Shown: one piece after another, positions 21,073-51,608 of the stretch | Position numbering within the stretch: the first letter of the stretch is position 1 | How the letters are laid out: every line of letters starts with the position of its first letter | DNA from: Pseudomonadota bacterium | Lineage (GTDB): Bacteria; Pseudomonadota; Gammaproteobacteria; Burkholderiales; Burkholderiaceae_C | Length of the DNA stretch: 64,000 bases | NCBI GenBank assembly: GCA_018241265.1 | Contig: JAFEEF010000034.1 | Span: 1 to 64,000, forward strand | Direction: 5' to 3' | Notes under the pieces: model-generated | Database searches by the model: none | What the model saw: only the letters and a program-made list of their open reading frames with translations | Told to the model about the DNA's origin: nothing | Translations under genes and position numbers: made by a program

Positions 21073-21104
21073 GTCCGAATTGTTGCATCCCGGCATGTCC
21101 GACT

Positions 21105-21159
21105 AGGGAAATCCCTGGCCGAAGAAATCCATGACTTTTCATACGTTCTGGTATAAATT
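21105..21159. promoter_or_regulatory. divergent control region with candidate MarR operator and -10
   Basis: ATAC (21141-21144) and GTAT (21151-21154) form the core of an imperfect inverted repeat spanning 21136-21159 that overlaps a -10-like TATAAA (21152-21157) for the rightward operon. A second, perfect palindrome, AGGGA-AA-TCCCT, lies at 21105-21116 between the two genes. Either could be the regulator's binding site. Confidence 0.35.
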
Positions 21160-21192
21160 GATCGCAAGTGAAGGAGAGTCGCCGGAGCACTC

Positions 21193-23337
21193 ATGGCCGA
21201 ACGTTCGTTCGTTGAAGAGGTCAAGAAGCTGAAGCTGGGAGCCGGCGAGGTCTTCCGTGGCGAAGGCATCCTGGCCGTCACCAAGGCGCTGCTGGAGTCG
21301 GGCGTTGCGTACGTCGCGGGCTACCAGGGCGCTCCGATCTCGCACCTGATGGACGTACTGGCGGACGCCCAGGACATCCTCTCCGAGTACGGCATCCGGT
21401 TCGAGAACAGTGCCAGCGAAGCGACCGCTGCCGCGACCTTGGCCGCCTCGGTGAACTATCCCCTGCGCGGCGCGGCGACCTTCAAGTCGACCGTCGGCAC
21501 CAACGTCGCGTCGGACGCGCTGGCGAACCTGGCGTCCGGCGGCGTCACCGGCGGCGCGCTGATCGTCGTCGGCGAGGACTACGGCGAAGGCTCCTCGATC
21601 ATGCAGGAGCGCAGCCACGCCTTCGCGATGAAGTCGCAGATCTGGCTGCTCGACCCGCGGCCCGACCTGCCGAGCATCGTCGGCGCGGTCAAGCACGGCT
21701 TCGAGCTCTCGGAGGCCAGCAACACGCCGGTGATGCTGCAACTGCGCATCCGCGCCTGCCACGTGCATGGCGAGTTCATCGCCGGCGACAACCGGGCTCC
21801 CGACTTCACCCTGAAGCAGGCGCTGGAACAGCCGCAGCGTGACACCAGCCGCATCGTGCTGCCGCCCGCCAGCTTCCTGCACGAGCAGGAGAAGATCCGC
21901 GACCGTTGGCCCGCGGCCGTGCGCTACATCGAGCAGAACCGGCTCAACGAGTTCTTCAACGAGACCGGCGACGACATCGGGATCGTCGTCCAGGGCGGCA
22001 GCTACAACACCCTCATGCGCGTGCTCGAGCGCCTGGGCGTGGCCGATGTCTACGGCAACACCAGCGTGCCGCTCTATGTCATGAACGTCGCCTACCCGGT
22101 CATCGACCGGGAGATGCTGCGCTTCTGCCGGAACAAGCGTGCTGTCCTGATGGTGGAGGAGGGGCAGCCCAACTTCATCGAGCAGAACGTCGCGACGCTG
22201 CTTCGGCAGGCCGACTCTCCCGCGGCGTTGCATGGCAAGGACATGCTGCCGATGGCGGGGGAGTACACCGCGGCCGCGCTCATGAAGGGCGTGCGGACCT
22301 TCCTGGAGCAGTACGGCCGCCTCCGACCGATCGCGAAGCCGGCCACGGCCCAGCCGAGGAAGGTCATTCCGCTGAAAGCGCTGGACGAGAGCGTGCAGGG
22401 TCGGCCGCCCGGCTTCTGCACCGGCTGCCCCGAACGTCCCATCTTCACGGCGATGAAGCTCGTGGAGCGCGAACTCGGGCCGCATCACGTCAGTGCCGAC
22501 ATCGGCTGCCACCTCTTCTCCATCCTGCCGCCGTTCAACCTCGGCAACACCACGATGGGCTACGGTCTCGGTGCCGCGGGCGCGGCTGCGCTCAACGCGC
22601 CGGCGGGCAAGCGTGCGATCAGCGTGATGGGCGATGGCGGGTTCTGGCACAACGGCCTGACCAGCGGCGTCGCCAACGCGGTGTTCAACCGCAGCGACAA
22701 CCTCACGATCGTCGTCGACAACAGCTACACCTCGGCCACCGGCGGCCAGGACATCCTGTCGTCGACGGCGGTCAACAAGACCCGCGACACCGGCCACGCG
22801 ATCGAGGACGCGGTGAGGGGCGTCGGCGTCAAGTGGGTGCGCACGCTGGAACGCACCTACGACGTCGCCGGCATGCGCGACACGCTGCGCCAGGCGCTCA
22901 CGACGCAGGAGAAGGGCCCCAAGGTCCTGATCGCGCAGTCGGAGTGCATGCTCAATCGCCAGCGCCGCGAGAAGCCGTTGCAGCGAAAGGCGGTCGCCGA
23001 GGGCAAACGCGTCGTGCGCGAACGCTTCGGTGTCGATGCCGATACCTGCACCGGCGACCATTCCTGCATTCGCCTGTCGGGATGTCCGTCGCTCTCGATC
23101 AAGCCGAATCCGGACCCGCTGCGCCAGGACCCGGTCGCCACGGTGCTCGACTCCTGCGTGGGCTGCGGCCTGTGCGGAGAGGTCTCGCACGCCGCGGTGC
23201 TGTGCCCCTCGTTCTACAAGGCGCAGATCGTCACCAACCCGAGCCGTTGGGACCGCGTGAAGCGACGCATGAGCCTGGCCGTGATCGGCGCGCTGCAGCG
23301 TCGCGAGGCGCGTGCAAGGAGTCGCTATGCGTTCTGA
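21193..23337 (+). CDS. TPP-dependent 2-oxoacid:ferredoxin oxidoreductase alpha subunit (IorA-like)
   Basis: A 714-residue homologue of indolepyruvate:ferredoxin oxidoreductase alpha. The N-terminal pyrimidine-binding domain has GYQGAPISHLMDVLA and SASEATAAATLAASVNYPLR. The PP-binding domain has MGDGGFWHNGLTSGVANAVF with VDNSYTSATGG (about nt 22627-22750). Two cysteine clusters at the C-terminus (CTGDHSCIRLSGCP and CVGCGLCGEVSHAAVLCP, about 23047-23212) replace the usual ferredoxin domain. It opens the operon divergent from MarR and overlaps the beta gene by 11 nt. In this context I infer that the 2-oxoacid is isatinate, giving 2-aminobenzoyl-CoA. The homologue in iad loci is, as I recall, named iadA. 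Confidence 0.9.
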   Translation: MAERSFVEEVKKLKLGAGEVFRGEGILAVTKALLESGVAYVAGYQGAPISHLMDVLADAQDILSEYGIRFENSASEATAAATLAASVNYPLRGAATFKSTVGTNVASDALANLASGGVTGGALIVVGEDYGEGSSIMQERSHAFAMKSQIWLLDPRPDLPSIVGAVKHGFELSEASNTPVMLQLRIRACHVHGEFIAGDNRAPDFTLKQALEQPQRDTSRIVLPPASFLHEQEKIRDRWPAAVRYIEQNRLNEFFNETGDDIGIVVQGGSYNTLMRVLERLGVADVYGNTSVPLYVMNVAYPVIDREMLRFCRNKRAVLMVEEGQPNFIEQNVATLLRQADSPAALHGKDMLPMAGEYTAAALMKGVRTFLEQYGRLRPIAKPATAQPRKVIPLKALDESVQGRPPGFCTGCPERPIFTAMKLVERELGPHHVSADIGCHLFSILPPFNLGNTTMGYGLGAAGAAALNAPAGKRAISVMGDGGFWHNGLTSGVANAVFNRSDNLTIVVDNSYTSATGGQDILSSTAVNKTRDTGHAIEDAVRGVGVKWVRTLERTYDVAGMRDTLRQALTTQEKGPKVLIAQSECMLNRQRREKPLQRKAVAEGKRVVRERFGVDADTCTGDHSCIRLSGCPSLSIKPNPDPLRQDPVATVLDSCVGCGLCGEVSHAAVLCPSFYKAQIVTNPSRWDRVKRRMSLAVIGALQRREARARSRYAF

Positions 23338-24856
23338 CGGCGCCCAACCGATCAAGGTCGCGATCCTCGCCATGGGCGGGGAGGGCGGCGGGGTGCTGGC
23401 GGACTGGCTGGTCGACCTCGGCGAGTCCAACGGCTACATCGCGCAGACCACCTCGGTGCCGGGCGTGGCCCAGCGCACCGGCGCGACGATCTACTACGTC
23501 GAACTGTTTCCGGCGGCCGCCGCCGAGGCGCAAGGCCGGCCACCGATCCTGGCGCTGATGCCGCTGCCCGGCGACGTGGACGTCGTCCTCGCTTCGGAGC
23601 TCATGGAAGCGGGCCGCGCGATGCAACGCGGACTGGTCACCTTCGACCGCACCACGCTGGTCGCATCGACGCACCGCGTGTACGCGATCGCCGAGAAGTC
23701 CTCGATGGGCGATGGCCGTGTCGACTCGGACAACCTGCTCGCTCACGGCAATGCCGCGGCGAAGCGCTTCGTGCGATTCGACATGGCGAAGGTCGCCGAG
23801 GAAACGGGCAGCGTGATCAGCGCTGTGCTCTTCGGTGCCTTGGCCGGTACCGGCGCACTGCCGTTCGGCCGCAAGCAGTTCGAAGACACGATCGAGCGCG
23901 GCGGCGTCGGCGTGAAGGCGAGCCTCGAGGCCTTCGCCGCCGGCTTCGATCGCGCTTCCCGCGAAGAGACGAATGCGCAGGAATCGGCATCCGCCGAAGC
24001 GCCGGCCGATGTGCTGACGCCGACCGACCCGCAGGTACGGGCGCTGCTCGAGCGCGTGCGTGCCGAGTTGCCCGCCGGCGTACGTGCCACGGCCATCGAA
24101 GGCGTCCGCCGCTCGATCGACTACCAGGATCCCGCCTATGCGGCGCTGTACCTCGACCGCCTGAAGGGGCTGGTCGGTGTGGCGGGGTCGACGGACCAGG
24201 ACTTGCTCGTCGAGACGGCGCGCCACCTCGCGCTGTGGATGTCCTACGAGGACACGATCCGCGTGGCGGACCTCAAGACGCGCGCGAGCCGTTTCGAGCG
24301 GGTCGGCGCGGAAGTGAAGGTGCAGGGCGGCCAGATGCTCGACATCAACGAGTTCATGCATCCGCGCCTGCAGGAGATCTGCGAGACCTTGCCGGCCGGT
24401 CTCGGCCGCTGGCTGGAAAAGCCCGGTCTGGCTCGCAAGCTGGTCGAGCGTTTCACGCAGAAGGGCCGCGTCATCAAGACCAGCTCCTTGGGCGGCTTCC
24501 TGATGCTCTACACCGTGGCGCGCATGAAAGCGTGGCGCCGGAGCACGCAGCGCTTCGCGCTCGAGACGCAACGCATCGAGCAGTGGCTTCGGCGCATCGA
24601 GAGTGCCGCGCGAATCAATCCCCAGCTGGCACTCGAAATCGCCCAGTGCCAGCGACTGGTCAAGGGCTACAGCGACACGCACGAGCGCGGCTTGCGCAAC
24701 TACCAGACGGTGATGGCGGCCATGGACAAGGCTGGCGCGGCCATGGCGCCGGCCACGCTGCGGGAGCTTCGCGAAGCGGCGCTGGCCGACGAACACGGAC
24801 TCGAGCTCAAGGGTGTGCTGGCGCGCCTGGCGTTGCCGACGGAGCTGGCCGCATGA
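23327..24856 (+). CDS. 2-oxoacid:ferredoxin oxidoreductase beta subunit with DUF6537-type extension (IorB-like)
   Basis: A 509-residue partner of the preceding TPP subunit. The first 190 residues are the POR gamma-type domain (ILAMGGEGGGVLADWLVDLG, TTSVPGVAQRTGATIYYVEL, DVVLASELMEAGRAMQRGLV). The remaining 300 helical residues, with YDRLKGLVG-like YLDRLKGLVGVAG and VARMKAWRRSTQRFALET, match the long extension found on indolepyruvate oxidoreductase beta subunits of proteobacteria. AAGGAG precedes ATG 23327, which lies inside the end of the alpha gene. The following reductase gene overlaps by 4 nt. Confidence 0.88.
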   Translation: MRSDGAQPIKVAILAMGGEGGGVLADWLVDLGESNGYIAQTTSVPGVAQRTGATIYYVELFPAAAAEAQGRPPILALMPLPGDVDVVLASELMEAGRAMQRGLVTFDRTTLVASTHRVYAIAEKSSMGDGRVDSDNLLAHGNAAAKRFVRFDMAKVAEETGSVISAVLFGALAGTGALPFGRKQFEDTIERGGVGVKASLEAFAAGFDRASREETNAQESASAEAPADVLTPTDPQVRALLERVRAELPAGVRATAIEGVRRSIDYQDPAYAALYLDRLKGLVGVAGSTDQDLLVETARHLALWMSYEDTIRVADLKTRASRFERVGAEVKVQGGQMLDINEFMHPRLQEICETLPAGLGRWLEKPGLARKLVERFTQKGRVIKTSSLGGFLMLYTVARMKAWRRSTQRFALETQRIEQWLRRIESAARINPQLALEIAQCQRLVKGYSDTHERGLRNYQTVMAAMDKAGAAMAPATLRELREAALADEHGLELKGVLARLALPTELAA

Positions 24857-25839
24857 GCGCGACCGTGCTGTCCTTGAAAGTCGCGGACGTGCAGCAGCTC
24901 AATCCGCTGATCCGCCGCTTCCGTCTCGTCGCGCCGGATGGCGCGGCGCTGCCCTCGTTCACGGCCGGGGCGCACCTGCGGGTGCAGGTCACGCTTGCCG
25001 ATGGACGGCTCGACTGGCGCCACTATTCGCTGGTCAACTTCTCCACCGATGCGGCCGTCACCGAGAACCCGACGGAATACGCGATCGCCGTGCGCCTGGA
25101 GGGGGAAGGTCGTGGCGGCTCCCGTTTCATGCACGAGCGCGTGAAGCCCGGTGACACGCTGAGCATCGAGGCGCCGAAGAACGAGTTCCCGCTGCGGGTG
25201 CTGGACGGCTGCGCCGTGATGATCGCCGGCGGCATCGGCATCACGCCGATCACCGCGATGGCCGCCCAACGCAAGGCCGAGGGCCGCCCGGTGCGGCTGC
25301 ACTACGCCGCGCGCAGCCGTTCGCTGATGGCCTTCCTGCCCGAGCTGCAATCGCTGCTGTCCGACGACCTTCAACTGCATGCCGACGACGAGGCCGGCCG
25401 GCCGCTCGACATCGACGCGGTCCTCGACGGCTGCGAGTCGCATGACCAACTCTACGTCTGCGGCCCGAAGGTGATGCTGGACACGGTGCTGGCCAAGACG
25501 CAGGCCCGTGGGTGGACCCACGAGCGCGTGCACTTCGAGCTCTTCACCACGCCGGCGGCCGAGGGCGGCGACCGACCGATCGAGGTCGTGCTGGCCCAGA
25601 GCGGCAAGACGCTCACCGTGCCCGCGAAGCAGACGATCCTCGACTGCCTGATCGAGCAGGGCTGCGACCCGCTGTTCGACTGCAAGCGCGGCGAGTGCGG
25701 CGTGTGCTCGACGACGGTCATCGAAGGCGACATCGATCACCGCGACTACTTCCTGAGCGACGCCGAGAAGAAGAGCAACAAGGTGATGCAGATCTGCGTG
25801 TCCCGCTCTCGAAGCGGACGCATCGTTCTCGATCTCTAG
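24853..25839 (+). CDS. iadC: oxygenase reductase component (FMN/NADH/2Fe-2S, VanB/PDR type)
   Basis: A 328-residue class IA reductase that passes NAD(P)H electrons to a Rieske oxygenase. Order: FMN-binding barrel (about 1-105; HYSLVNFS), NAD-binding domain (about 106-225; MIAGGIGITPITAMAAQ, DQLYVCGPKVML) and a plant-type ferredoxin at the C-terminus (FDCKRGECGVC with the last Cys in MQICVS). It overlaps the upstream gene by ATGA and precedes the Rieske alpha gene by 15 nt, so it is the dedicated reductase. The symbol is used by analogy with the Variovorax IAA-degradation locus, from memory of the gene order. Confidence 0.9.
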   Translation: MSATVLSLKVADVQQLNPLIRRFRLVAPDGAALPSFTAGAHLRVQVTLADGRLDWRHYSLVNFSTDAAVTENPTEYAIAVRLEGEGRGGSRFMHERVKPGDTLSIEAPKNEFPLRVLDGCAVMIAGGIGITPITAMAAQRKAEGRPVRLHYAARSRSLMAFLPELQSLLSDDLQLHADDEAGRPLDIDAVLDGCESHDQLYVCGPKVMLDTVLAKTQARGWTHERVHFELFTTPAAEGGDRPIEVVLAQSGKTLTVPAKQTILDCLIEQGCDPLFDCKRGECGVCSTTVIEGDIDHRDYFLSDAEKKSNKVMQICVSRSRSGRIVLDL

Positions 25840-25854
25840 ACCCGAGGAAGCAGC

Positions 25855-27165
25855 ATGAGCCCTTATCGCGGACATCCCGATGCCGTGCGCGCGCTGGTCA
25901 AAGCCGACCGCGTGCACCGCGACCTGTACATCTCGCCCGAGGTGTTCGACCTCGAGCAGGAACACTTCTTTGCCAACACCTGGAACTACGTCGGCCATGA
26001 CAGCCAGATCCCGAAGAACGGCGACTACCTGACGGTGGACGTGGCAGGCCGGCCGCTGATCGTCGTGCGCCACACCGACGGCAGCGTGCGCGTGATGATG
26101 AACCGCTGCGCCCACAAGGGCAGCCGGCTGGTCAGCGACTGCGGCAACACGGGCAAGTTCTTCCGTTGCCCGTATCACGCCTGGACGTTCAAGACCGACG
26201 GCTCGCTGCTGGCGATCCCACTGAAGAACGGCTACGAGGGCACGCAGCTCCAGGAGTGCGAGTCGGCAAAGGGCTTGACGGCACTGAAGAACGTGCACGT
26301 GTACCGCGGCTTCGTCTTCGCCAAGCTCAACGACGTCGGTCCGAGCTTCGAAGACTACTTCGGCGACTCGCTCAGCTCGATCGACAACATGGCCGACCGC
26401 TCGCCGGAAGGACAGCTGGAGATCGCCGGCGGTTGCTTGCGGTACATGCACAACTGCAACTGGAAGATGTTCGTCGAGAACTTGAACGACACGATGCACC
26501 CGATGGTGGCGCACGAGTCGTCCGCCGGCACGGCCAAGCGCATGTGGGCCGACAAGCCGGCCGATACGCCCAAGCCCATGGCGATCGAGCAGTTCGTGCC
26601 ATTCATGTCCGACTACCAGTTCTTCGAGGACATGGGCGTGCGCGTGTTCGACAACGGCCACAGCTTCTCCGGCGTGCATTTCTCGATCCACAGCAAGTAC
26701 TCCGCGATCCCGGACTACGACGCCGCGATGAAGTCGGCCTACGGCGAGGAACGCACGCAGCAGATCCTCGGGCTGGCGCGTCACAACACGGTCTACTACC
26801 CCAGTCTCACGATCAAGGGCGCGATCCAGTCCATCCGCGTCGTGCGCCCGATCGCAGTGGACCGGACCTTGGTGGAGAGCTGGACCTTCCGCCTGAAGGG
26901 CGCGCCCGACGAGCTGCTGGCGCGCACCTGCATGTACAACCGGCTGATCAATTCGCCGTTCTCGGTCGTCGGCCACGACGATCTGCGCGCCTATCGCGGC
27001 ATCCAGGAAGGTCTGCACGCCAGCGGCAACGACTGGATCAGCCTGCACCGCAACTACGACGAGTCGGAGCTCCGGCAGAAGGACCTCACGACCAACGGCA
27101 CGAGCGAGGTCTCGATGCGCAACCAGTACCGCGCCTGGGCCCGGTACATGACCTTGACGATGTGA
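25855..27165 (+). CDS. iadD: Rieske aromatic ring-hydroxylating dioxygenase alpha subunit
   Basis: Catalytic subunit of 436 residues. The Rieske site is CAHKGSRL...FFRCPYHAWTF (about 26104-26190) and the mononuclear iron site is in ENLNDTMHPMVAHES (Asp-x2-His-x4-His, about 26473-26520). The C-terminal domain ends MRNQYRAWARYM. Together with the beta subunit and the reductase just upstream it forms a complete oxygenase without a separate ferredoxin. The arrangement matches iad loci, where this enzyme oxidises indole-3-acetate to dioxindole-3-acetate. That substrate is inference from context; anthranilate or other aryl acids cannot be excluded from sequence alone. Confidence 0.9.
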   Translation: MSPYRGHPDAVRALVKADRVHRDLYISPEVFDLEQEHFFANTWNYVGHDSQIPKNGDYLTVDVAGRPLIVVRHTDGSVRVMMNRCAHKGSRLVSDCGNTGKFFRCPYHAWTFKTDGSLLAIPLKNGYEGTQLQECESAKGLTALKNVHVYRGFVFAKLNDVGPSFEDYFGDSLSSIDNMADRSPEGQLEIAGGCLRYMHNCNWKMFVENLNDTMHPMVAHESSAGTAKRMWADKPADTPKPMAIEQFVPFMSDYQFFEDMGVRVFDNGHSFSGVHFSIHSKYSAIPDYDAAMKSAYGEERTQQILGLARHNTVYYPSLTIKGAIQSIRVVRPIAVDRTLVESWTFRLKGAPDELLARTCMYNRLINSPFSVVGHDDLRAYRGIQEGLHASGNDWISLHRNYDESELRQKDLTTNGTSEVSMRNQYRAWARYMTLTM

Positions 27166-27175
27166 GGACCGGGCC

Positions 27176-27655
27176 ATGAGCGTCACCCGACAGGATCTGA
27201 TCGACTTCGTCGTCCAGGAAGCGCGCCTGCTCGATGCCAAGCGCTTCGAGGAGTGGAACGCACTCTTTACCGACGATGCCTTCTACTGGGTTCCCCTGGC
27301 GCCCGACCAGAAGGACGGCATCAACCACACCTCGCACATGTACGAGGACAAGTTGCTGCGCGAACTCCGCATCGAGCGCCTGAAGAGCCCGCGGGCGTTC
27401 TCGCAGCAGCCGCCCAGCCGCTGCCATCACCTGCTGCAGATGCCGACCGTCGAAGCGTTCGACGAAGCCGGCAATGCCTTCGTCGTGCGCAGCGAGTTCC
27501 ACTACACCGAGTCGCAAGGCGACGACATGCAGATGTACGTCGGTACCTGCTTCCATCATCTCGCGGTGCAGGGCGGCCAGCTGAAGATGACGCTCAAGCG
27601 CGTCAACCTGCTCAACTGCGACGCTGCCTTGCCCGCGGTGCAGCTCTTCATCTGA
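27176..27655 (+). CDS. iadE: ring-hydroxylating dioxygenase beta subunit
   Basis: A 159-residue NTF2-fold structural subunit: VVQEARLLDAKRFEEWNALFTDDAFYWVPL at the N-terminus, SRCHHLLQMP and VRSEFHYTE in the sheet, and TLKRVNLLNCDA near the end, all standard for small dioxygenase subunits. It starts 10 nt after the alpha gene and is followed closely by the ligase. It completes the hetero-oligomeric oxygenase. Confidence 0.9.
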   Translation: MSVTRQDLIDFVVQEARLLDAKRFEEWNALFTDDAFYWVPLAPDQKDGINHTSHMYEDKLLRELRIERLKSPRAFSQQPPSRCHHLLQMPTVEAFDEAGNAFVVRSEFHYTESQGDDMQMYVGTCFHHLAVQGGQLKMTLKRVNLLNCDAALPAVQLFI

Positions 27656-27662
27656 CGTGCCG

Positions 27663-29285: not shown

Positions 29286-30451
29286 AGCGACGCATGTCCT
29301 ACGAAGGCGTCGCGGTCGCCGTGCCGGTCACGGTGCCCTACGTGCGCTACTCGACGCACGGCGCGCATTGGTTCATCGGCCAGGCCCTCGAGGCCCTGGT
29401 CCGCGAGTCCGGCATCGACAAGGCGCAGATCGACGGCCTCACGATCTCGAGCTTCTCGCTCGGGCCGGACACCGCGGTCGGCGTCACCCAGCACATGGGC
29501 CTGTCGCCGCGCTGGCTGGACCACATCCCCAATGGCGGCGCGTCGGGCGTGATGGCGCTGCGCCGCGCGGCGCGCGCCGTGCAGGCCGGCGATGCCGACA
29601 TCGTGGCCTGCGTGTCCGGCGACACCAACCACGTCGACTCGTTCCGCCTGATGCTCGGTGGCTTCAGCTACTTCGCGCGCGACGCGAGCTACCCGTACGG
29701 CTCCGGCGGCCCGAACTCGATCTTCGCGTTCATCACCGCCAACTACATGCGCACTTTCGGCGCGACCCGCGAGGACTTCGGGCGCATCGCGGTCGCGCAG
29801 CGGGCGAACGCGCTGAAAAACCCGAACGCCATGTTCAAGAAGCCGCTGACGATGGACGAGTACATGAGTGCCCGTCCCATCTCCGATCCGGTGCATCTGT
29901 TCGACTGCGTGATGCCCTGCGCGGGCGGCGAAGCCTTCCTCGTGATGCGCGGGGAGAAGGCCCGCGAGCTGGGTCTGCCGCATGCCGTCGTCCGCGGTGC
30001 CATCGAGCGGCACAACGCCTATTCGGACGATCCGATCATGGTCCGCGGCGGCTGGGCGGTGGACCGCGACGACCTCTATGCGCAAGCCGGCGTCCAGCCT
30101 GCCGACATCGACTTCGTGCAGACCTACGACGACTATCCGGTCATCGTGATGCTGCAGTTCGAGGACCTGGGCTTCTGCGGCAAGGGCGAAGGTCCCGCCT
30201 TCGTCCGGTCGCGCTCGCTGACCTGCGACGGCGACTTCCCGAACAACACGTCGGGCGGCCAGCTGTCGGCGGGCCAGGCCGGGGCGGCGGGCGGCTTCCT
30301 CGGCATGACCGAGGCCATCCGGCAACTGACGAACGCGGCCGGCGATCGCTCGGTGCGCGATGCCAAGCTCGGCCTGGTCACCGGCTTCGGCATGGTCACG
30401 TACGACAGGTGCCTGTGCACGGGCGCCGTCATCCTGGGGGCGAGCGCATGA
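29282..30451 (+). CDS. thiolase-fold protein without the nucleophilic Cys (Ltp2/SCP-x-like, probable retro-aldolase)
   Basis: A 389-residue SCP-x/lipid-transfer-type thiolase-fold protein. The strand-helix segment where thiolases carry the acylated Cys reads HIPNGGASGVMAL, with Ala87 in the Cys position. The second half has QTYDDYPVIVMLQFEDLGF, NTSGGQLSAGQAGAAGGFLG and a terminal TYDRCLCTGAVIL. It is followed by a DUF35 zinc-ribbon/OB-fold domain, the obligate partner of Ltp-type proteins such as the steroid side-chain retro-aldolase Ltp2-ChsH2, which also lacks classical thiolase chemistry. I therefore infer aldol cleavage of a beta-hydroxyacyl-CoA. It starts with GTG in an overlap with the ligase stop; ATG 29294 is the alternative. 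Confidence 0.82.
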   Translation: MKRRMSYEGVAVAVPVTVPYVRYSTHGAHWFIGQALEALVRESGIDKAQIDGLTISSFSLGPDTAVGVTQHMGLSPRWLDHIPNGGASGVMALRRAARAVQAGDADIVACVSGDTNHVDSFRLMLGGFSYFARDASYPYGSGGPNSIFAFITANYMRTFGATREDFGRIAVAQRANALKNPNAMFKKPLTMDEYMSARPISDPVHLFDCVMPCAGGEAFLVMRGEKARELGLPHAVVRGAIERHNAYSDDPIMVRGGWAVDRDDLYAQAGVQPADIDFVQTYDDYPVIVMLQFEDLGFCGKGEGPAFVRSRSLTCDGDFPNNTSGGQLSAGQAGAAGGFLGMTEAIRQLTNAAGDRSVRDAKLGLVTGFGMVTYDRCLCTGAVILGASA

Positions 30452-30509
30452 GCGTGCCGGGCCGCTCCCAAACGCTCATCCCGCAGCGCGCAGCGCGGAG
30501 GGTTGCCCA

Positions 30510-31766
30510 ATGACGATGCCGCTGATGAAGCCCAAGCGCAAGAACCCGGTTCTGCGCACGCGGCAGATGAACCTGCCGCCGTGGTCGCGCGGACGGGTCG
30601 CGCTCGGCATGACCGCGGCCGCGTCGGAAGGACGCTTCGAGCTGCAGGTCTGCCGGCAGTGCCAGGCCGTGCAGTACCCGCCGCGCGAAGCCTGCCATCG
30701 CTGCCTGTCGCCCAAGCTGAAGTGGACGGCGCAATCGGGCGAGGGCACCTTGCTCGCGGACACGCGCCTGCACCACAGCAACGACCTCTTCTTCCGCGAG
30801 CGCCTGCCCTGGCGGCTCGGCATGGTCCATCTCGACGCGGGGCCCACCGTCATCGTGCACATGCACGACGAGATCGGGTCGCCGCCGCAGCGCGTGCGCG
30901 TGGGCGCCCGGCTGGACCGCGCCGGACAGGCGGTGCTCATCGGTTTTCCCAACGAAGGGAGCGAACACATGTCAGACGACAGGATGCTGCGCGAGATGGC
31001 CAGCGATCCGAAGTTCCGCAAGGTGCTGGTCACCGACGGCAAGACGGCCGTCGGCCAGGCGATCGTCAAGGCGCTGGTCAAGGCCGGCGCCGACATCGTC
31101 TGGGTCGGCCATGCGGAGCCCTGGAAGAAGCTGCCGGGCCTGGACGACATCACCTCGATGAAGGAGGTGACGCTGGTGCCGCTGGACCTCACGAACGAAC
31201 GCTCGGTGACGGAGCTCGCCGGCGAGATCGGCGGCAAGGTCGACATCGTCATCAACAACGCCGAGGTGCACCGAGCTTTCGGCATCGGCGGTCGCCGCGG
31301 CACCGACGTGGCCCGTGCCGAGATGGACATCAACTACTTCGGCCTGTTGCGCCTCGCACAAGGATTCGCGCCTGCGTTGAAGGGCCGCTCGGCCGATGGC
31401 GTCACGCACGCGGCCGCGTGGGTGAACCTGCTGTCCATCTACGCGCTGGCCAACTTCCCGCCGCACGGCACGTACTCGGCCTCGAAGGCCGCGGCGCTGT
31501 CGCTGTCGCAATGCCTGCGCGCCGAGATGCGTCCGGCCGGCATCCGCGTCGTCAACGTGTTCCCCGGTCCCATCGACGACGAATGGAACCAGAACCTGCC
31601 GCCGCCGAAGGTCGCGCCCTCGGCCCTGGCGAGCGCGATCGTGAACGCGCTCAAGCAGGGCGTGGAGGACGTGTATCCCGGCGAAGCCGCGCAGGAGTGG
31701 CTGGAGCGCTGGCGCGACAACCCCAAGGTGCTGGAGCGCGAGCTGGCTGCCGGAGGCGGGCAATGA
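30510..31766 (+). CDS. fusion of DUF35 zinc-ribbon/OB-fold and short-chain dehydrogenase
   Basis: A single 418-residue frame with two parts. Residues 1-150 are a DUF35-type protein: rubredoxin-like zinc knuckle CRQC (48-51) and CHRC (62-65), then an OB-fold with GEGTLLADTRLHHSNDLFF and PWRLGMVHLDAGPTVIVHMHD. From Met154 (ATG 30969) an SDR follows: VLVTDGKTAVGQAIVKALVKAGADIVWVG, VDIVINNAEVH, and catalytic HGTYSASKAAALSLSQ (Tyr-x3-Lys). GAAGGGAG lies 6 nt before ATG 30969, so the SDR may also be made separately. The SDR's Rossmann Gly motif is atypical (TDGKTAVGQA). The DUF35 part should bind the thiolase-like protein. Confidence 0.85.
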   Translation: MTMPLMKPKRKNPVLRTRQMNLPPWSRGRVALGMTAAASEGRFELQVCRQCQAVQYPPREACHRCLSPKLKWTAQSGEGTLLADTRLHHSNDLFFRERLPWRLGMVHLDAGPTVIVHMHDEIGSPPQRVRVGARLDRAGQAVLIGFPNEGSEHMSDDRMLREMASDPKFRKVLVTDGKTAVGQAIVKALVKAGADIVWVGHAEPWKKLPGLDDITSMKEVTLVPLDLTNERSVTELAGEIGGKVDIVINNAEVHRAFGIGGRRGTDVARAEMDINYFGLLRLAQGFAPALKGRSADGVTHAAAWVNLLSIYALANFPPHGTYSASKAAALSLSQCLRAEMRPAGIRVVNVFPGPIDDEWNQNLPPPKVAPSALASAIVNALKQGVEDVYPGEAAQEWLERWRDNPKVLERELAAGGGQ

Positions 31767-32557
31767 GCCTAGACATGACCGTCCTGGGCACGCTGGCCCT
31801 GGCGCTGGCGACCGGCCGCATCCGTGTCGTCGACCTGACGCAGACGCTGACGCCGGAATTCCCGCAGATCGCGCTGCCGCCCGAGATGGGCCAGTGCTGG
31901 CCGTTCCGCATCGAGGAGGTCTCGCACTACGACGACCGCGGTCCGGGCTGGTACTGGAACAACTTCTCCTGCGGCGAGCACACCGGCACGCACTTCGATG
32001 CGCCCATCCACTGGATCTCCGGCCGAGACCTGCCGAACAACTCGGTGGACACCATTCCCGCGCAGCACTTCGTCGCGCCCGCCTGCGTGATCGACTGCTC
32101 CGAGCAGGCCAAGGTCGATCCGGACTACCTGCTGACGGTGGCCGACATCGAGCAGTGGGAAGCGGTCCACGGCCGCATCCCGGCCGGTGCGTGGGTGCTG
32201 ATGCGCACCGACTGGTCGCATCGCACCGACCCCGAGGCCTACCAGAACTTCGACGAGACCGGTCAGCACACGCCCGGCCCCGCCAGCGAGGCGGTGCGTT
32301 TCCTGGTCGAGCAGCGCAACGTGCTGGGCTTCGGCACGGAGGCCATCGGCACCGACGCGGGCCAGGGCTATCACCTGCGGCCTCCGTATCCGTGCCACTA
32401 CTTCATGCACGGCGCCGGCAAGTACGGCCTGCAGTGCCTCACCAACCTCGACAAGCTGCCGCCCACCGGCGCGGTGCTGATCTGCCCGCCGCTGAAGATT
32501 CAGAAGGGCAGCGGCAGCCCGTTGCGCGTGCTGGCGATGGTGGAGGACCAGGCATGA
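31763..32557 (+). CDS. cyclase-family metal hydrolase, probable isatin hydrolase type
   Basis: A 264-residue member of the cyclase family (PF04199), which includes kynurenine formamidase and Mn-dependent isatin hydrolase. The metal-binding signature [12 protein letters not shown] (about 31981-32016) is intact, preceded by [13 protein letters not shown] and followed by [30 protein letters not shown] and [12 protein letters not shown]. It overlaps the preceding fusion gene by ATGA. In the proposed pathway it opens the lactam of isatin to isatinate. The family assignment is firm; the substrate is inference. Confidence 0.85.
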
Positions 32558-33282
32558 GCGCGCAGAAGGTCGCCGTCGTCACGGGCGGCAGCGCCGGCAT
32601 CGGCAAGGGCGTGTGCGAGCGGCTGCTGGCGGACGGCTACGAAGTGGTGTCGCTGGCCAGGCGCCGCGCCGACATCGAGCATGCGCGCATGCACAGCATC
32701 GAAGTCGATCTCATGGACCGCCGGGCGACGGCCGATGCCGTGCGCGAGATGGCGCAGCGATTCGAGGCGACCACGGTCGTCCACAACGCCGGCGTCATCC
32801 GCCCGGCGCTGCTGCCGGACGTGAAGCTCGACGACCTGGACGCGCTGGTCGATCTGCACCTCGGGTGCGCGATCCAGCTCGTGCAGGCGACCCTGCCGAC
32901 GATGAAGGCTCGGCGCTTCGGCCGCGTGGTGCTGCTGTCCTCCCGTGCCGCGCTCGGCCTGCAGACCCGCACGGCCTACTCGGCCACCAAGGCCGGCATG
33001 CTCGGCATGGCGCGCACCTGGGCGCTCGAGCTGGCGCCGGAAGGCATCACGGTGAACGTCGTGGCACCGGGCCCGATCCGCACCGACATGTTCTACGACG
33101 TGGTCGAGAAGGACAGCGACAGGGAGCGACAGCTCGCTGCCTCCATCCCGGTCCGCCGCCTGGGCCTCTCCGAGGACGTGGCGCGCGCGGTCTCGTTCTT
33201 CGTGGATGCCGACAACGGCTTCGTCACCGGTCAGGTGCTGTACGTGTGCGGCGGCACCAGCATCGGCAGCTTGTCCCTCTGA
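32554..33282 (+). CDS. short-chain dehydrogenase/reductase
   Basis: A 242-residue classical [22 protein letters not shown] (TGxxxGxG), VVHNAGV (NAG), LLSSRAAL, catalytic [11 protein letters not shown] (Tyr-x3-Lys), and [12 protein letters not shown]. It overlaps the cyclase gene by ATGA and is followed by the substrate-binding protein gene after 23 nt. The substrate is unknown; a step on a hydroxylated or oxo intermediate of the aromatic acid pathway is possible. Confidence 0.9.
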
Positions 33283-33305
33283 AGTTCCTCCGAAAGGCAG
33301 ACAAC

Positions 33306-34214
33306 GTGAACCTCGTTCGCCATTTCACGCTGGCCGTCATCGGCGCGGCGGCGGCCGTCTCGACGCTGGCCGCGGACCTGAAGGTCGGTTTCATCACCTC
33401 GCTGTCGGGCCCGGTTTCCTCGCTGGGCATTCCCTACGCCAAGGGCATCCAGGCGGGACAGGCGTGGAAGTCCGAAGTCGCGGGCCACAAGATCCAGCTC
33501 GTCCAGCTCGACGACGGCTCCGATCCCGCGACCTCGGCCCGCAATGCGCGCAAGCTGATCAACGAGGACAAGGTCGACGTCATCATCGGCACCGCGGGCT
33601 CGCCGGGCTCGCTCGCGATCGCGGCCGTGGCGCGCGAGACGAAGACGCCGCTGATCTCGATCGCCAACGCCAACCTCGCCGGCGAAGAGGGGGCGTGGAT
33701 GGTCACGCTGCCGCAGCCCGCTCCGCTGATGGTCGGCGCGGTCGTCGAGCGCATGAAGAAGTCCGGCGTGAAGACGGTGGGTTACATCGGCTTCTCCGAT
33801 GCCTGGGGCGACCTCGTCTACGACGCGCTCACGAAGGCCGCCGAACCCGCCGGGATCAAGGTCGTGACCAACGAACGCTACGCCCGCGCCGACACCTCGG
33901 TGACCGGCCAGGTGCTGAAGATCGTCGCCGCCCATCCGGACGCGGTCGGCGCGATCTCGGAAGCCGACCACGCGAACAGCATCATCGCCGCGGGGCGTGC
34001 CGACTTGTGCGCCGTCGCGCGACCGCACCTCGCCAATCCCGCCTGGACGCTGATGGAGGCCGCGAAGATCGGCTACGTCGAGCTCGCATGGCCGAAGCAA
34101 TACCGCGCGGCCAAGATGCAGCTGGAGCGAGACCTGGAGCGCCGGCGCGCCGTGCAGGCGCAGGTCGCCGGGCTGTCGCCGCTGGAGCAGGCCAACCGCG
34201 CGCTGGGGGTGTGA
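33306..34214 (+). pseudogene. chimera: truncated ABC substrate-binding protein fused to the tail of a 2-aminobenzoyl-CoA monooxygenase/reductase
   Basis: Residues 1 to about 212 are a periplasmic branched-chain amino-acid-type (LivK) binding protein: signal peptide [56 protein letters not shown] and IGFSDAWGD. From about residue 213 the sequence switches to [31 protein letters not shown] and WPKQYRAAK, which is the C-terminal end of the old-yellow-enzyme domain of salicylyl-CoA/2-aminobenzoyl-CoA monooxygenases. Binding proteins are about 380 residues and the monooxygenase about 780, so most of both is gone. The junction lies near AVGAI (about 33942-33957), a stretch both parents could share. 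No permease or ATPase genes are present. The product is unlikely to work as either parent. Confidence 0.75.
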
Positions 34215-34972
34215 TGCGGGGTCGACACGCGCTCGTCACCGGAGCAGCCCGAGGCATCGGCGCCGCGATTGCGCGCGCTCTTGCCGAAGAGGGCGCGACG
34301 CTGACGCTGCTGGGCCGGAACCGGGAAGCGCTGCAGGCGCTCGCGACATCGCTGCCGGGCGAGCACGGCGTGGCAGTCGCGGACGTCGGCGACGCCGGGC
34401 AGGTGCACTCGGCCTTCGAGCAGGCCCGTCGCGAGCGCGGCGCGATCTCCATCCTCGTGAACAACGCCGGGCAGGCCGAGAGCGCGCCCATTCTCAAGAC
34501 CTCGGTCGAGCTCTGGGCGCGCATGCTCGCGGTCAACCTGACCGGCACGTTCCTCTGCAGCCAGGTCGCGCTGCCGGACATGCTGGCCGCCGGCAGCGGC
34601 CGCATCGTCAACGTCGCCAGCACTGCAGCGCAAGTGGGTTACGCCTACGTCAGCGCCTATGTGGCGGCCAAGCACGGCGTGCTCGGGCTGACGCGCTCGC
34701 TCGCGCTGGAAGTGGCGCGCAAGGGCATCACGGTCAACGCGGTCTGTCCCGGCTACACGGAGACCGACATCCTGCGCGAGAGCATCGCCAACGTCGTCGC
34801 CAAGACCGGCCGAAGCGAAGCCGAGGCGCGCGCGGAGTTCTCGAAGTCGAACCCCCAGGGCCGCATCGTGCAGCCCGAGGAGGTGGCCGACGCGGTGCGC
34901 TGGCTGTGCAGCGACGGCGCGTCGGCCATCACCGGTCAGGCGATTTCGGTCAGCGGTGGGGAGGTGACATGA
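34214..34972 (+). CDS. short-chain dehydrogenase/reductase (3-hydroxyacyl-CoA dehydrogenase-like)
   Basis: A 252-residue classical SDR: ALVTGAARGIGAAIARALAEEG, ILVNNAGQAE, IVNVASTAAQ, YVAAKHGVLGLTRSLA (Tyr-x3-Lys) and VNAVCPGYTETD, ending AITGQAISVSGG. Its start overlaps the stop of the chimera by one base (TGATG). SDRs in this position accompany 2-aminobenzoyl-CoA monooxygenase genes in betaproteobacteria, where a hydroxyacyl-CoA dehydrogenase is needed for later ring-derived intermediates (context inference). Confidence 0.88.
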   Translation: MRGRHALVTGAARGIGAAIARALAEEGATLTLLGRNREALQALATSLPGEHGVAVADVGDAGQVHSAFEQARRERGAISILVNNAGQAESAPILKTSVELWARMLAVNLTGTFLCSQVALPDMLAAGSGRIVNVASTAAQVGYAYVSAYVAAKHGVLGLTRSLALEVARKGITVNAVCPGYTETDILRESIANVVAKTGRSEAEARAEFSKSNPQGRIVQPEEVADAVRWLCSDGASAITGQAISVSGGEVT

Positions 34973-35460
34973 GCATCGGCCTCGAAGACGCCCAGCTCGG
35001 GCATGAAGCCCGGGCCGGCAAGGGTGATCACGCCGCGCTGAAGCTTTGGCTTCGGATGCTGTCGTGCTGCACGGAAATCGAAGGGGAGATCCGCCGCCGC
35101 CTGCGCGATCGCTTCGGCGTATCGCTGGCCCGTTTCGACTACCTCGCCCAACTGCACAGGCATCGAGATGGTTTGAAGATGCGCGACCTGTCTCGCTACC
35201 TCATGGTCACCGGCGGCAACGTCACCGTGCTGACCGACGACCTCGAGAAGGACGGCCTGGTCGTCCGCGAGAACAGCCCGACCGACCGCCGCGCCTGGAT
35301 CGTCCGCCTCACGCCGGAAGGGCGGAAGAGCTTCGAGGCCATGGCGCGGGAACACGAAAGCTGGCTGGTCGAACTGTTCGGCGGCGTCGATGGCCGCAGC
35401 CTGCAGCAGTTGCATCAGCAACTCGGCGCGCTTCGCGTCACCCTCAACCAACGGCTCTGA
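34969..35460 (+). CDS. MarR-family transcriptional regulator
   Basis: A 163-residue winged-helix regulator: VSLARFDYLAQLHRH, LKMRDLSRYLMVTGGNVTVLTDDLEKDGLVVRENSPTDRRAW, with a C-terminal LQQLHQQLGALRVTL dimerisation helix. It lies inside the same-strand operon, overlapping the SDR by ATGA, so it is co-transcribed with the genes it may regulate. It is the second MarR gene of the island and clearly different from the divergent one. Relatives respond to aryl-CoA esters (family knowledge), so 2-aminobenzoyl-CoA is a candidate ligand. Confidence 0.88.
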   Translation: MSIGLEDAQLGHEARAGKGDHAALKLWLRMLSCCTEIEGEIRRRLRDRFGVSLARFDYLAQLHRHRDGLKMRDLSRYLMVTGGNVTVLTDDLEKDGLVVRENSPTDRRAWIVRLTPEGRKSFEAMAREHESWLVELFGGVDGRSLQQLHQQLGALRVTLNQRL

Positions 35461-35465
35461 TCCAC

Positions 35466-35642
35466 ATGGTCGACTCGAACGTTTCCCCCGCACTGCCGGC
35501 CGGCAACCGCAAGCCGGCGTCCGGCTTCACGTTCGGCGCCGCATGGCAACGCGACCTCGGCAAGAACGTGACGTGCGAAGCCGCGATGTCCAAGATGGTC
35601 GCCATCATCGCCCGCGAGCTTCTCAAGGAGGCTCGCGCGTGA
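35466..35642 (+). CDS. short hypothetical protein, possible gene remnant
   Basis: A 58-residue frame between the MarR and thioesterase genes, starting 5 nt after MarR and ending in a GTGA overlap with the next start. It reads MVDSNVSPALPAG...FTFGAAWQRDLGK...CEAAMSKMVAIIARELLKEARA. The C-terminal half looks like an amphipathic helix from a larger enzyme; I do not recognise it. No ribosome site precedes the ATG. Given the deletion scar 1.5 kb upstream, this may be a second internally deleted gene, but the open frame and tight spacing would also fit a real small gene. Confidence 0.35.
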   Translation: MVDSNVSPALPAGNRKPASGFTFGAAWQRDLGKNVTCEAAMSKMVAIIARELLKEARA

Positions 35643-36064
35643 GCCGCGCCTTCGTCGTCGACCGGCGCATCCGCTTCTCGGATTGCGATCCCGCGGGGAT
35701 CGTGTTCTATCCGCAGTACTTCGTGATGCTCAACGGCCTCGTCGAGGACTGGATCAACGAGCTCGGCGTGAGCTACCACGGGCTCGTCGTCGACCGACGA
35801 GTCGGACTGCCCACCGTACACCTGATGGCGGACTTCAAGGCCGTCAGCCGACTCGGGGACCGCGTTCGCCTTCGCCTGGAGGTCGTACGGCTCGGCCGCA
35901 GCTCGTTGACGCTTGCGGTGTCGTGCACCGGGCAGAAACCGGAAGACGTCCGGATGACGATGGCCCAGGTCATCGTCCTCACGTCGCTGGACACCCATCG
36001 CGCCATTCCCATTCCGGCGGACCTGCGGGTCGCCATCGAACAGTTCGCATTCCAAGGAACCTGA
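35639..36064 (+). CDS. 4-hydroxybenzoyl-CoA thioesterase-family (hotdog) acyl-CoA thioesterase
   Basis: A 141-residue hotdog-fold thioesterase with the 4HBT signature IRFSDCDPAGIVFYPQYFVMLN, whose Asp is the catalytic residue of the Pseudomonas-type enzymes. AAGGAGG lies 8 nt before the GTG start. In the context of a 2-aminobenzoyl-CoA pathway it could release anthranilate from its CoA ester or rescue dead-end CoA esters. It is tightly packed between the small frame and the RidA gene. Confidence 0.9.
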   Translation: MSRAFVVDRRIRFSDCDPAGIVFYPQYFVMLNGLVEDWINELGVSYHGLVVDRRVGLPTVHLMADFKAVSRLGDRVRLRLEVVRLGRSSLTLAVSCTGQKPEDVRMTMAQVIVLTSLDTHRAIPIPADLRVAIEQFAFQGT

Positions 36065-36065
36065 C

Positions 36066-36458
36066 ATGCAAGTCCTGCAACCGCCCGCCTGGCCTCGGCC
36101 CAAGGGCTATGCCAACGGCTTCGCCGTTCGCGGCCGCCTAGTCTTCGTCGCCGGCATGATCGGATGGGACGCCGAAGGTCGCTTCCCGAGCGACGACTTC
36201 GCGGACCAGGTGCGGCAGGCGCTCGCCAACATCGTCGAGGTGCTGCGCGAGGCGCGGGCCCTGCCCGAACACATCGTCCGCATGACCTGGTATGTGACCG
36301 ACAAGCGCGAGTACCTCGCTGCCGGCAAGGCGATCGGCCAGGCGTACCGCGAGCTGATCGGCTCGTACAACGCCGCCATGACGGCCGTCCAGGTGACAGC
36401 CCTGATGGAGGACCGTGCCAAGGTCGAGATCGAAGTCACCGCCGTCATTCCGGATTGA
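36066..36458 (+). CDS. RidA/YjgF-family protein
   Basis: A 130-residue RidA-superfamily protein: [55 protein letters not shown] and [28 protein letters not shown]. The Arg that canonical RidA uses for imine hydrolysis (in the C-terminal VxxLPxxxxVEIEA region) is not in its usual place; here the stretch is [13 protein letters not shown]. Such divergent members occur inside aromatic-acid operons and may hydrolyse enamine/imine intermediates from amino-substituted rings. It starts 1 nt after the thioesterase gene. Confidence 0.88.
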
Positions 36459-48532: not shown

Positions 48533-48596
48533 GACATGGCCACCACCATGTAGCACGCACCGCACTGAACGCAAGACTAGCAAGGACAAACCACCC

Positions 48597-51539: not shown

Positions 51540-51560
51540 AACCTCCGGCGGCTTTCACCC

Positions 51561-51596: not shown

Positions 51597-51608
51597 TGGG
51601 GGATGTGC

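Follow-up and report, generated by a model that had tools for sequence, protein, structure and literature searches.

An iad-type auxin degradation operon in a Burkholderiaceae_C bacterium and its predicted route through isatin and isatinate to 2-aminobenzoyl-CoA

Key root bacteria use the iad pathway for the clearance of excess auxin (indole-3-acetate, IAA), and the pathway is being engineered into root-associated strains. In Variovorax paradoxus CL014 the locus consists of a divergent iadR followed by iadA to iadK2 (PMC9613470, PMC12633357). According to the published work, the operator is located in the iadR-iadA intergenic region, and the operon is released when IadR binds IAA. The Rieske oxygenase system IadCDE adds one oxygen to IAA, which yields a mono-oxygenated product C10H9NO3, the SDR IadJ is required for the formation of dioxindole-3-acetate and IadK2 is described as non-essential (PMC12633357). 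In the published scheme, as far as accessible, IadG acts as a ketothiolase, anthranilate is the endpoint and IadAB carries no assignment.

We analyzed a window of 64,000 nt (positions 1 to 64,000 of contig JAFEEF010000034.1, assembly GCA_018241265.1) from a Pseudomonadota bacterium of the Burkholderiaceae_C. Judged by orthology, gene order and regulator, the locus found here is an iad-type IAA degradation operon. Its order iadR-A-B-C-D-E-F-G-H-I-J-K2 is the published Variovorax order, with iadK2 truncated in the window; all genes lie on the plus strand except iadR. With IadD as the query, the ten genes iadA to iadJ were found in the same order on one strand in 55 of 80 loci, a conservation far beyond chance, and several of the remaining 25 loci end at a contig boundary. 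IadD, the large (alpha) subunit of the Rieske oxygenase (25855..27165), matches the crystallised IadD of V. paradoxus CL014 (9o71) over its full length (residues 1-436, 842 bits). The oxygenase reductase iadC (24853..25839; FAD, NAD and Fer2 domains) and the small (beta) subunit iadE (27176..27655; Ring_hydroxyl_B) are located in the expected order, and the iad marker genes iotA/iadA and iorB/iadB are both present and orthologous. The MarR-family repressor iadR (20596..21096, minus strand) matches the structures 7kfo/7kki (MarR_73 with IAA, 216 bits). Six of the seven published IAA contacts are identical (Y15, A18, S28, H32, W45 and R46) and V65 is replaced by I, and release of the operon by IAA is predicted here as well. 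By the position published for V. paradoxus, the operator would be expected at 21097..21192; no shared operator motif was recovered. Domains and coordinates confirm the gene list and order of the original prediction, including the divergent MarR gene, and the comparison of synteny and identity with iad loci agrees with the iad-type identity that it proposed.

The conserved block exceeds positions 21193..36458. It reaches downstream to an acyl-CoA dehydrogenase gene (36469..37647; 91% identity to its Caenimonas counterpart) and upstream to a 3-hydroxyacyl-CoA dehydrogenase gene (19594..20583; Pfam 3HCDH_N, 3HCDH), which is often found upstream of iadR in loci of Caenimonas and Variovorax and in some from Ramlibacter, with 71-78% identity among the loci listed. 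Two features at the end of the operon were missing from the earlier gene list. One is a gene at 33306..34214, in which IadK2, an IAA-binding protein, is cut at residue ~214 (7ylt, 349 bits for residues 23-215) and continues in frame into a C-terminal tail (~90 residues) from ACMR, the 2-aminobenzoyl-CoA monooxygenase/reductase; this tail is 69% identical to the intact ACMR of the same genome. The other, at 35463..35642, is a remnant that fuses the start of an enoyl-CoA hydratase with two small acyl-CoA dehydrogenase fragments; the matches behind it are short, with a best E of 7e-7. An intact IadK2 does not define an iad locus, because the protein was published as non-essential. Between the two features lie an SDR gene (34214..34972), which is placed after ACMR in relatives (64-84% identity to the post-ACMR gene of loci L093, L094 and L095), and a second, iadR2-like MarR gene (34969..35460; 75% to the Caenimonas gene at the same place). 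A 4HBT-family thioesterase gene (35639..36064), a neighbor of ACMR in L094, L141 and L147, and a RidA-family gene (36156..36458; Ribonuc_L-PSP) follow. An intact ACMR gene, a hydratase gene, a ligase gene and a dehydrogenase match are present on another contig (C45). Judged from these alignments, all that is left of ACMR next to the operon is the tail fused to IadK2, and the 2-aminobenzoyl-CoA genes have decayed. It is quite unlikely that both features were created by the assembly and that the organism itself holds a full module here, even for a genome in 116 contigs that was judged from its contig sequence. The breakpoint of the fusion (about 33942-33946) has an overlap of ~5 bases, which seems too short for the usual assembly collapse; moreover, two or three separate breakpoints lie within one module, whose core genes have further copies at other places in the genome.

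For the operon as a whole we propose, with a probability of about 0.74, a route of IAA oxygenation, CoA attachment, retro-aldol cleavage, isatin hydrolysis and oxidative decarboxylation of isatinate to 2-aminobenzoyl-CoA. The chemistry of the original prediction largely stands: its retro-aldol cleavage, isatin hydrolysis and TPP-enzyme step agree with the enzymes encoded and with metabolites in the literature. It assigned the step from IAA to dioxindole-3-acetate to the Rieske enzyme. Its oxygenase system stands, but in V. paradoxus the enzyme makes C10H9NO3, and oxidation to dioxindole-3-acetate needs IadJ (PMC12633357). The window encodes IadJ at 32554..33282, and the SDR motifs are intact in this protein. 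The AMP-forming acyl-CoA ligase IadF (27657..29285) is predicted from its AMP-binding domains and gene order to convert dioxindole-3-acetate to the CoA ester.

The next step would be carried out by IadG (29282..30451) together with the DUF35 part of IadH (30510..31766), splitting the tertiary beta-hydroxyacyl-CoA into isatin and acetyl-CoA. IadG has a thiolase fold with best PDB matches to 9myr (179 bits), 6ok1 (158 bits) and 4u4e (157 bits); the last, named "Thiolase", scores nearly as high as 6ok1. IadG had been described as a thiolase-like protein without Cys. This holds for the nucleophile position, where the alignment places Gly, but not for the whole protein, which has seven Cys elsewhere. 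As in the Sal/Ltp2 retro-aldolases, the nucleophile Cys is missing, a catalytic Tyr is present and a DUF35 partner is encoded alongside. The acid residue of that family (in YDCY the Cys, in Ltp2 the second Tyr) is replaced by Asp in a YDDY motif, which together with two Gln is kept in 71 of 71 IadG matches covering the site. IadG is therefore predicted to work like these enzymes with a variant site, in which Tyr282 would be the base and Asp284 the likely acid, and the retro-aldol split to isatin proposed earlier is in line with these features. No biochemical precedent for YDDY was found in the accessible parts of published accounts of Sal/Ltp2-type retro-aldolases. IadH consists of a ChsH2-like zinc ribbon and OB domain (zf-ChsH2, OB_ChsH2_C) fused to an SDR half (adh_short), and all 71 matches are full length with the four zinc Cys. 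The SDR half looks degenerate. None of the 71 proteins has the canonical TGxxxGxG (70 read TDGK(T/S)xxG, one SDGKSAVG), and the catalytic Tyr is changed to Phe (FSASK) in 69 of them; the IadH of the window reads TDGKTAVG, yet unlike those 69 it retains the Tyr of YSASK. With the canonical nucleotide motif absent from its SDR half, IadH is probably the DUF35 partner of the aldolase. A 2025 preprint suggested that IadG works as a usual ketothiolase and that the side chain is removed reductively by IadH as a functional dehydrogenase. The annotation, the near-equal match to 4u4e and a C8H7NO2 product in V. paradoxus (PMC12633357), two hydrogens more reduced than isatin, fit this, but dioxindole may arise from reduction of accumulated isatin. 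With no nucleophile Cys in IadG, no SDR nucleotide motif in IadH and a tertiary beta-alcohol as substrate, which cannot become a 3-keto ester, we regard the suggestion as very unlikely.

IadI (31763..32557) is assigned as an isatin hydrolase by strong orthology. This cyclase-family protein matches the isatin hydrolases 5nnb (381 bits), 5nmp and 5nna with 380-381 bits. All seven residues that bind Mn or shuttle protons in LaIHA are kept (H69, H73, D75, H79, D193, H207 and Q219 correspond to H73, H77, D79, H83, D198, H212 and Q224), and the motif GLQC is present in 70 of 70 orthologues. The earlier assignment of isatin hydrolysis to isatinate to this gene is thereby supported.

Isatinate, the sole 2-oxo acid of the route, would be converted with CoA to 2-aminobenzoyl-CoA and CO2 by IadAB. 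IadA (21193..23337; TPP_enzyme_C) is the alpha subunit of a TPP-dependent 2-oxoacid:acceptor oxidoreductase with GDG and cysteine motifs conserved in its orthologues, and IadB (23312..24856; NF006179, 727 bits) is the beta subunit with a POR gamma-type domain and DUF6537. Among 398 Pseudomonadota genomes, IadA was found in 29 and isatin hydrolase in 25. Both occur together in 23, often close by and mostly without the IAA oxygenase; in the two other hydrolase genomes (G320, G408) IadA was not found. In 25 genomes from 16 genera IadA has at least 60% identity. Isatin hydrolase is located within 30 kb of it in 20 of these (11 genera), and 13 of them, from 6 genera, have ACMR at a distance of up to 15 kb. 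These counts are uncorrected for kinship; eight of the 25 genomes belong to one genus. An IadD match is missing in 19 of the 25. The hydrolase is on a different contig in G378, G308 and G400 and was not found at the thresholds used in G105 and G345. In L141 and L147, iadA, iadB, the thioesterase and ACMR are contiguous. No AMP ligase was found within the ten fetched IadA stretches of 15-20 kb. Of the 20 ACMR loci near IadA or iad, 4 have an anthranilate-type ligase within 15 kb; of the 55 other ACMR loci, 45 have one and ten are without it. The ligase is present in 3 of 13 IadA-linked ACMR loci (G278, G281, G412) and also in G076 and Tsukamurella, whose cyclase deviates from the hydrolase motif (GLTS). 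L093-L096 carry a different, IadF-like ligase before ACMR, and A. thermophilum has iadA-F and ACMR, with G, H and I absent within the fetched stretch. ACMR without iad is common (19 of 35 same-family genomes).

Since IadA accompanies isatin hydrolase and ACMR, and ACMR loci at its side are usually without the ligase, IadAB is predicted to form 2-aminobenzoyl-CoA from isatinate; with the ligase mostly missing at these loci, IadAB is the predicted source of the CoA ester. The original prediction of this product fits the enzyme class and gene company, but nine genes, iadC-K2, restore anthranilate in V. paradoxus without iadAB (PMC12633357), and IadAB is therefore dispensable for anthranilate in that strain. 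It is probable that IadAB is an isatinate (2-aminophenylglyoxylate) oxidoreductase and forms with isatin hydrolase and ACMR a portable isatin module, which replaces the anthranilate-CoA ligase, occurs far beyond auxin degraders and was joined to the auxin oxygenase in iad loci via a new YDDY-type retro-aldolase, IadG with the DUF35/pseudo-SDR protein IadH. The accessible iad literature contains no report of 2-aminobenzoyl-CoA on this route. The operon may instead stop at anthranilate as published, with isatinate decarboxylated via 2-aminobenzaldehyde or by another enzyme and IadAB in a side role or none. C7H7NO accumulates with the nine-gene cassette (PMC12633357), IadA is present in just 67 of 80 IadD loci (others are cut by contig ends), and iadA and iadB are absent from a 21-kb stretch of L027. 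This alternative is unlikely, as IadAB is described in the literature as a marker found exclusively in iad-like operons, its genes iotA and iorB rise 30.7- and 7.6-fold with IAA in B. japonicum, and its linkage to isatin hydrolase and ACMR persists where the IAA oxygenase is missing. Most improbable is that IadAB is a genuine indolepyruvate oxidoreductase supplying the operon with tryptophan-derived indoleacetyl-CoA or IAA. Database names and a distant TIGR03336 match point in this direction, as does the aryl-pyruvate activity cited in the B. japonicum study, but the match is far under the family cut-off (288 versus 651 bits), no isatin hydrolase match was found in the four genomes with only distant IadA-like copies (<60% identity), and among the genes searched for in the loci viewed the linkage is to isatin hydrolase and ACMR.

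If IadAB acts on isatinate, its reaction would directly link the degradation of auxin with an established pathway for burning aromatic rings. ACMR would dearomatize 2-aminobenzoyl-CoA, in this genome with the intact copy on contig C45, and the thioesterase could divert 2-aminobenzoyl-CoA to anthranilate. IadAB and IadG, the one unassigned and the other called a ketothiolase in the published scheme that ends at anthranilate, each receive a specific, assayable reaction, and genes now annotated as indolepyruvate oxidoreductase receive a likely substrate. Isatinate- and aminobenzaldehyde-type formulas accumulating with the nine-gene cassette may also be explained: C8H7NO3, which builds up in a V. 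paradoxus deletion background overexpressing iadC-K2 without iadAB (PMC12633357), fits isatinate. This build-up could come from overexpression instead. iadAB plus ACMR are predicted to carry auxin carbon into central metabolism.

The closest known system is the iad locus of V. paradoxus CL014; identities to the Variovorax loci listed are about 78-85% for IadD, 81-85% for IadH and 87-91% for IadI. The locus of the window differs by the cut IadK2 with its ACMR tail and by the absence of a second IadD-like oxygenase, which is found in most Variovorax loci listed. Like Caenimonas, it has SDR, MarR, RidA and acyl-CoA dehydrogenase genes after the operon, and it adds the thioesterase. The iac and anaerobic iaa pathways also degrade IAA, with other gene sets according to the literature, and iaa likewise ends at 2-aminobenzoyl-CoA. 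The pathway from anthranilate with ligase and ACMR is present on contig C45, whereas IadAB-linked loci are mostly without the ligase. IadI shares all seven metal and catalytic residues with LaIHA and RsIHA (5nnb, 5nmp; PMC6117287) and is located in an IAA operon. With CtSal-ShyDUF35 and TcLtp2-ChsH2DUF35 (PMC12329534), IadG shares the fold, a Gly at the position of the nucleophile Cys and the catalytic Tyr, and with CtSal it also shares two Gln; IadH corresponds to their DUF35 partner, including the C-x2-C-x10-C-x2-C site. They differ from these steroid retro-aldolases by YDDY instead of YDCY or YDHF, by a DUF35 fused to a degenerate SDR where the steroid enzymes have a hydratase, and by the predicted substrate, a small indole instead of a steroid side-chain.

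The genes between positions 20596 and 36458 of the window were called and domain-scanned together with their neighbours. The divergent regulator gene iadR (20596-21096, minus strand) is followed on the plus strand by iadA (starting at 21193), iadB, iadC, iadD, iadE, iadF, iadG, iadH, iadI, iadJ (ending at 33282) and a truncated iadK2 (33306-34214). Further downstream follow an SDR gene, a second MarR gene (MarR2), a remnant, and genes for a thioesterase, a RidA protein and an acyl-CoA dehydrogenase. The genome containing this contig comprises 5.86 Mb in 116 contigs, and the proteins have close named relatives in Caenimonas, Ramlibacter and Variovorax. The original prediction of an iad-type locus for indole-3-acetate (IAA) degradation is supported. 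The order iadC-D-E-F-G-H-I-J-K2 is that of a nine-gene region described as sufficient for the conversion of IAA to anthranilate (PMC12633357), and the full-length IadD sequence can be aligned with the crystal structure of V. paradoxus CL014 IadD (9o71, 842 bits). IadR matches MarR_73 (7kfo/7kki) with 216 bits and is identical in six of the seven published IAA contacts, V65 being replaced by Ile. Moreover, iadA and iadB were described as exclusive markers of iad-like operons (PMC9613470). The locus is an iad locus of the already known kind. A genome scan with IadD as query yielded 273 relatives, and the analysis continued with the best 80; 55 of these 80 loci carry iadA to iadJ completely, in the same order and on one strand, and individual genes are present in between 66 and 80 loci, several loci ending at contig ends. 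An octopine/nopaline-dehydrogenase-like gene is located upstream of the locus (18516-19586); in Paracoccus saliphilus, a gene of this name lies beside the iad cluster as well (L105, 1-978). A plasmid of Azospirillum thermophilum (L001) carries iadA to iadF with an SDR gene and a 2-aminobenzoyl-CoA monooxygenase/reductase (ACMR) module, and no iadG, iadH or iadI within the fetched stretch.

The gap between iadR and iadA was searched for an IadR operator motif common to the loci. Common 8-mers exist there among the Variovorax loci; we claim no operator, because none of the 25 most frequent ones occurs in the window. Rfam at gathering thresholds revealed nothing in the window beyond one tRNA gene (RF00005, 41663-41750, minus strand), and a plasmid megablast gave partial relatives only, mostly across iadA. 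In the region 48001-52000 the AT skew is strong (0.25), and short tandem repeats occur at 49034-49315.

The best solved relatives of IadG are 9myr (179 bits), the steroid aldolase 6ok1 (158 bits) and 4u4e, which is named a thiolase (157 bits). A thiolase fold alone would not distinguish aldolase from thiolase. 9myr appears to be CtSal, judging from its YDCY motif and numbering. CtSal uses Tyr302 and Cys304, assisted by Gln347 and Gln352, Ltp2 relies on YDHF and a further Tyr, and in these aldolases Gly takes the position of the nucleophilic Cys of thiolases (PMC12329534). At the corresponding places, read off the alignment with the structural relatives, IadG has Tyr282, Asp284, Gln327, Gln332 and Gly, so that the motif is YDDY instead of YDCY or YDHF. 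All 71 locus hits that cover the motif contain YDDY and the stretch NTSGGQLSxGQAG (73 IadG hits in all, the two not covering it being excluded), and the motif pattern occurs in 118 of 120 listed database homologues, including that of the window. The beta carbon of dioxindole-3-acetyl-CoA bears a tertiary alcohol, so that a retro-aldol reaction giving isatin and acetyl-CoA, and not thiolysis, would be the simple cleavage. In IadH, the DUF35 half keeps C-x2-C-x10-C-x2-C in 71/71 sequences. The canonical TGxxxGxG of the SDR half is found in 0/71 and is replaced by TDGK(T/S)xxG (70/71) or SDGKSAVG (1/71). The catalytic Tyr is changed to Phe in 69/71, and by alignment both Tyr and Lys are lost in Sagittula and Paracoccus; the IadH of the window, which is outside the 71, retains the Tyr. 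IadJ, used as control, keeps TGGSAGIG in 68/70 and YxATK in 70/70. Because IadH lacks the SDR nucleotide motif while IadJ keeps its own, IadH most likely acts, judged from its sequence, as the DUF35 protein that partners IadG, its other half being a pseudo-dehydrogenase.

The cyclase-family hydrolase IadI had been predicted to convert isatin to isatinate, and this assignment is supported by orthology and by its catalytic residues. Among solved structures, isatin hydrolases match IadI best (5nnb and 5nmp, 381 bits each; 5nna, 380 bits; 4j0n, 276 bits). All manganese ligands and proton-shuttle residues described for isatin hydrolase in PMC6117287 were found in IadI, and GLQC is kept in 70/70 orthologues. 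It was suggested in a preprint that IadI may be a broad-specificity amidase; on these sequence grounds, an assignment as isatin hydrolase is more precise.

IadAB belongs to the class of CoA-acylating 2-oxoacid oxidoreductases, and isatinate is the only 2-oxo acid within the proposed route, in which IadAB would turn isatinate and CoA into 2-aminobenzoyl-CoA. The main text of PMC12633357 contains no occurrence of iadA or iadB. Published data lend outside support to the proposed role. In B. japonicum, iotA (iadA) was up 30.7-fold and iorB (iadB) 7.6-fold with IAA (PMC3788728). C8H7NO3, the formula of isatinate, and C7H7NO were reported to accumulate in strains overexpressing iadC-K2, those with the deletion background being without iadAB. 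Anthranilate was restored in the deletion background; therefore IadAB is not required for its formation. In a survey of 398 Pseudomonadota genomes, with the best two IadA candidates scored per genome, IadA (E <= 1e-150) was found in 29, isatin hydrolase (E <= 1e-60) in 25 and both in 23 genomes (hypergeometric 1e-29, genomes treated as unrelated). A 36% cyclase match of genome G345 was left out, and two-piece IadA matches of G105, G308, G403 and G458 were joined as one gene with rounded joint identity. Four genomes with solely more distant IadA copies gave no hydrolase match. Among the 25 genomes with IadA of at least 60% identity (16 genera, eight genomes from one genus), the hydrolase gene and IadA are at most 30 kb apart in 20 (11 genera) and at most 5 kb apart in 14. 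IadD is missing at E <= 1e-100 in 19 of the 25, and in 15 of these 19 the hydrolase is still within 30 kb. ACMR is present in all 25 genomes and within 15 kb of IadA in 13 (6 genera). Its mere presence was dropped as evidence, since 19 of 35 same-family genomes without IadD match also carry ACMR, and linkage and ligase loss were used as tests instead. Plasmid records give the same picture: cyclase-MarR-iadA-iadB in Sulfitobacter, a hydrolase gene immediately upstream of iadA-iadB in Novosphingobium, a second hydrolase-iadA-iadB-type unit beside a full iad cluster in Paracoccus, and iadA-iadB-thioesterase in Ruegeria and Sagittula. A Tsukamurella plasmid carries a cyclase whose motif departs from that of the hydrolase, as well as iadAB accompanied by ACMR and a ligase. 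In loci L141 and L147, iadA-iadB-thioesterase-ACMR is contiguous. Searches of the open-access library gave no published description of the reaction proposed for IadAB, of the YDDY aldolase reading of IadG or of a module made up of isatin hydrolase, IadAB and ACMR.

FAD amine-oxidase-like genes (L138, 10941-12515 and 13727-15298) flank isatin hydrolase in a genome without IadD match, and FAD oxidoreductase genes are located near iadAB in Tsukamurella (L102); they may provide a local isatin source. The host genome encodes a second IadA-like protein (59%; G000:C102:33017-35122, locus L137). On a Hydrogenophaga plasmid (L107, 10011-12359), an IadA-like gene (77%) lies beside glutamine synthetase-like, amidotransferase and Rieske genes with IS1071 nearby, a neighbourhood which we take to resemble an aniline cluster.

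A CoA ligase is needed ahead of ACMR when free anthranilate is the substrate. We compared 75 ACMR loci, linked ones having IadA within 15 kb (one set) or IadI within 30 kb (iad set). An anthranilate-type ligase was found within 15 kb in 4/20 linked and 45/55 other loci (Fisher p 1.5e-6) and, with the iad set removed, in 3/13 and 30/36 (p 1.8e-4), loci being treated as unrelated in both cases. G083, without full-length ACMR, was omitted, the split ACMR of G084 entered the count as a single locus, G017 and G084 gave partial ligase matches, and G068, without IadI match, was scored as unlinked. G308 has both kinds of ACMR locus, one with the ligase and one with iadAB and a thioesterase and no ligase on its contig. 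IadA stretches of 15-20 kb were fetched from 10 of the 29 genomes with IadA, and an AMP ligase was found in none of the ten; G278 and G471 have a ligase immediately beyond the stretch. Loci L093-L096 hold a different, IadF-like ligase before ACMR, which counts against the pattern of ligase loss.

In the window, iadK2 ends at residue ~214, where the reading frame continues into the C-terminal ~90 residues of ACMR; at the junction both homologies overlap by about 5 bases. A 59-residue frame after MarR2 combines the start of a hydratase with two short dehydrogenase pieces, the matches being short (best E 7e-7). Contig C45 of the same genome carries an intact ACMR gene together with genes for a MarR protein, a hydratase, RidA, a ligase and a protein matching an acyl-CoA dehydrogenase at 30%. 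The simplest history would be that the window formerly had the joined module and that the lost portion is duplicated on C45; that the truncated tail stems from an assembly join seems improbable. Whole-genome searches for ACMR and IadI took in 27 of the 80 IadD loci. ACMR was found in 26 of these 27 iad genomes (in one case in pieces), the remaining one giving partial matches only, and in 7 of the 27 it lies within 30 kb of iadI on the same strand. Downstream of iadJ, Caenimonas soli (L093) carries a K2-like gene, then a second IadD-like gene and one more K2-like gene. After ~4 kb left unannotated in this analysis, genes follow for an IadF-like ligase, an SDR, ACMR, an SDR, MarR2, a hydratase, an acyl-CoA dehydrogenase, RidA and another acyl-CoA dehydrogenase. 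Most of the Variovorax loci inspected among L002-L081 have an additional K2-like gene and an additional IadD-like oxygenase gene (about 55-62% identity) downstream of iadK2, whereas the window has neither.
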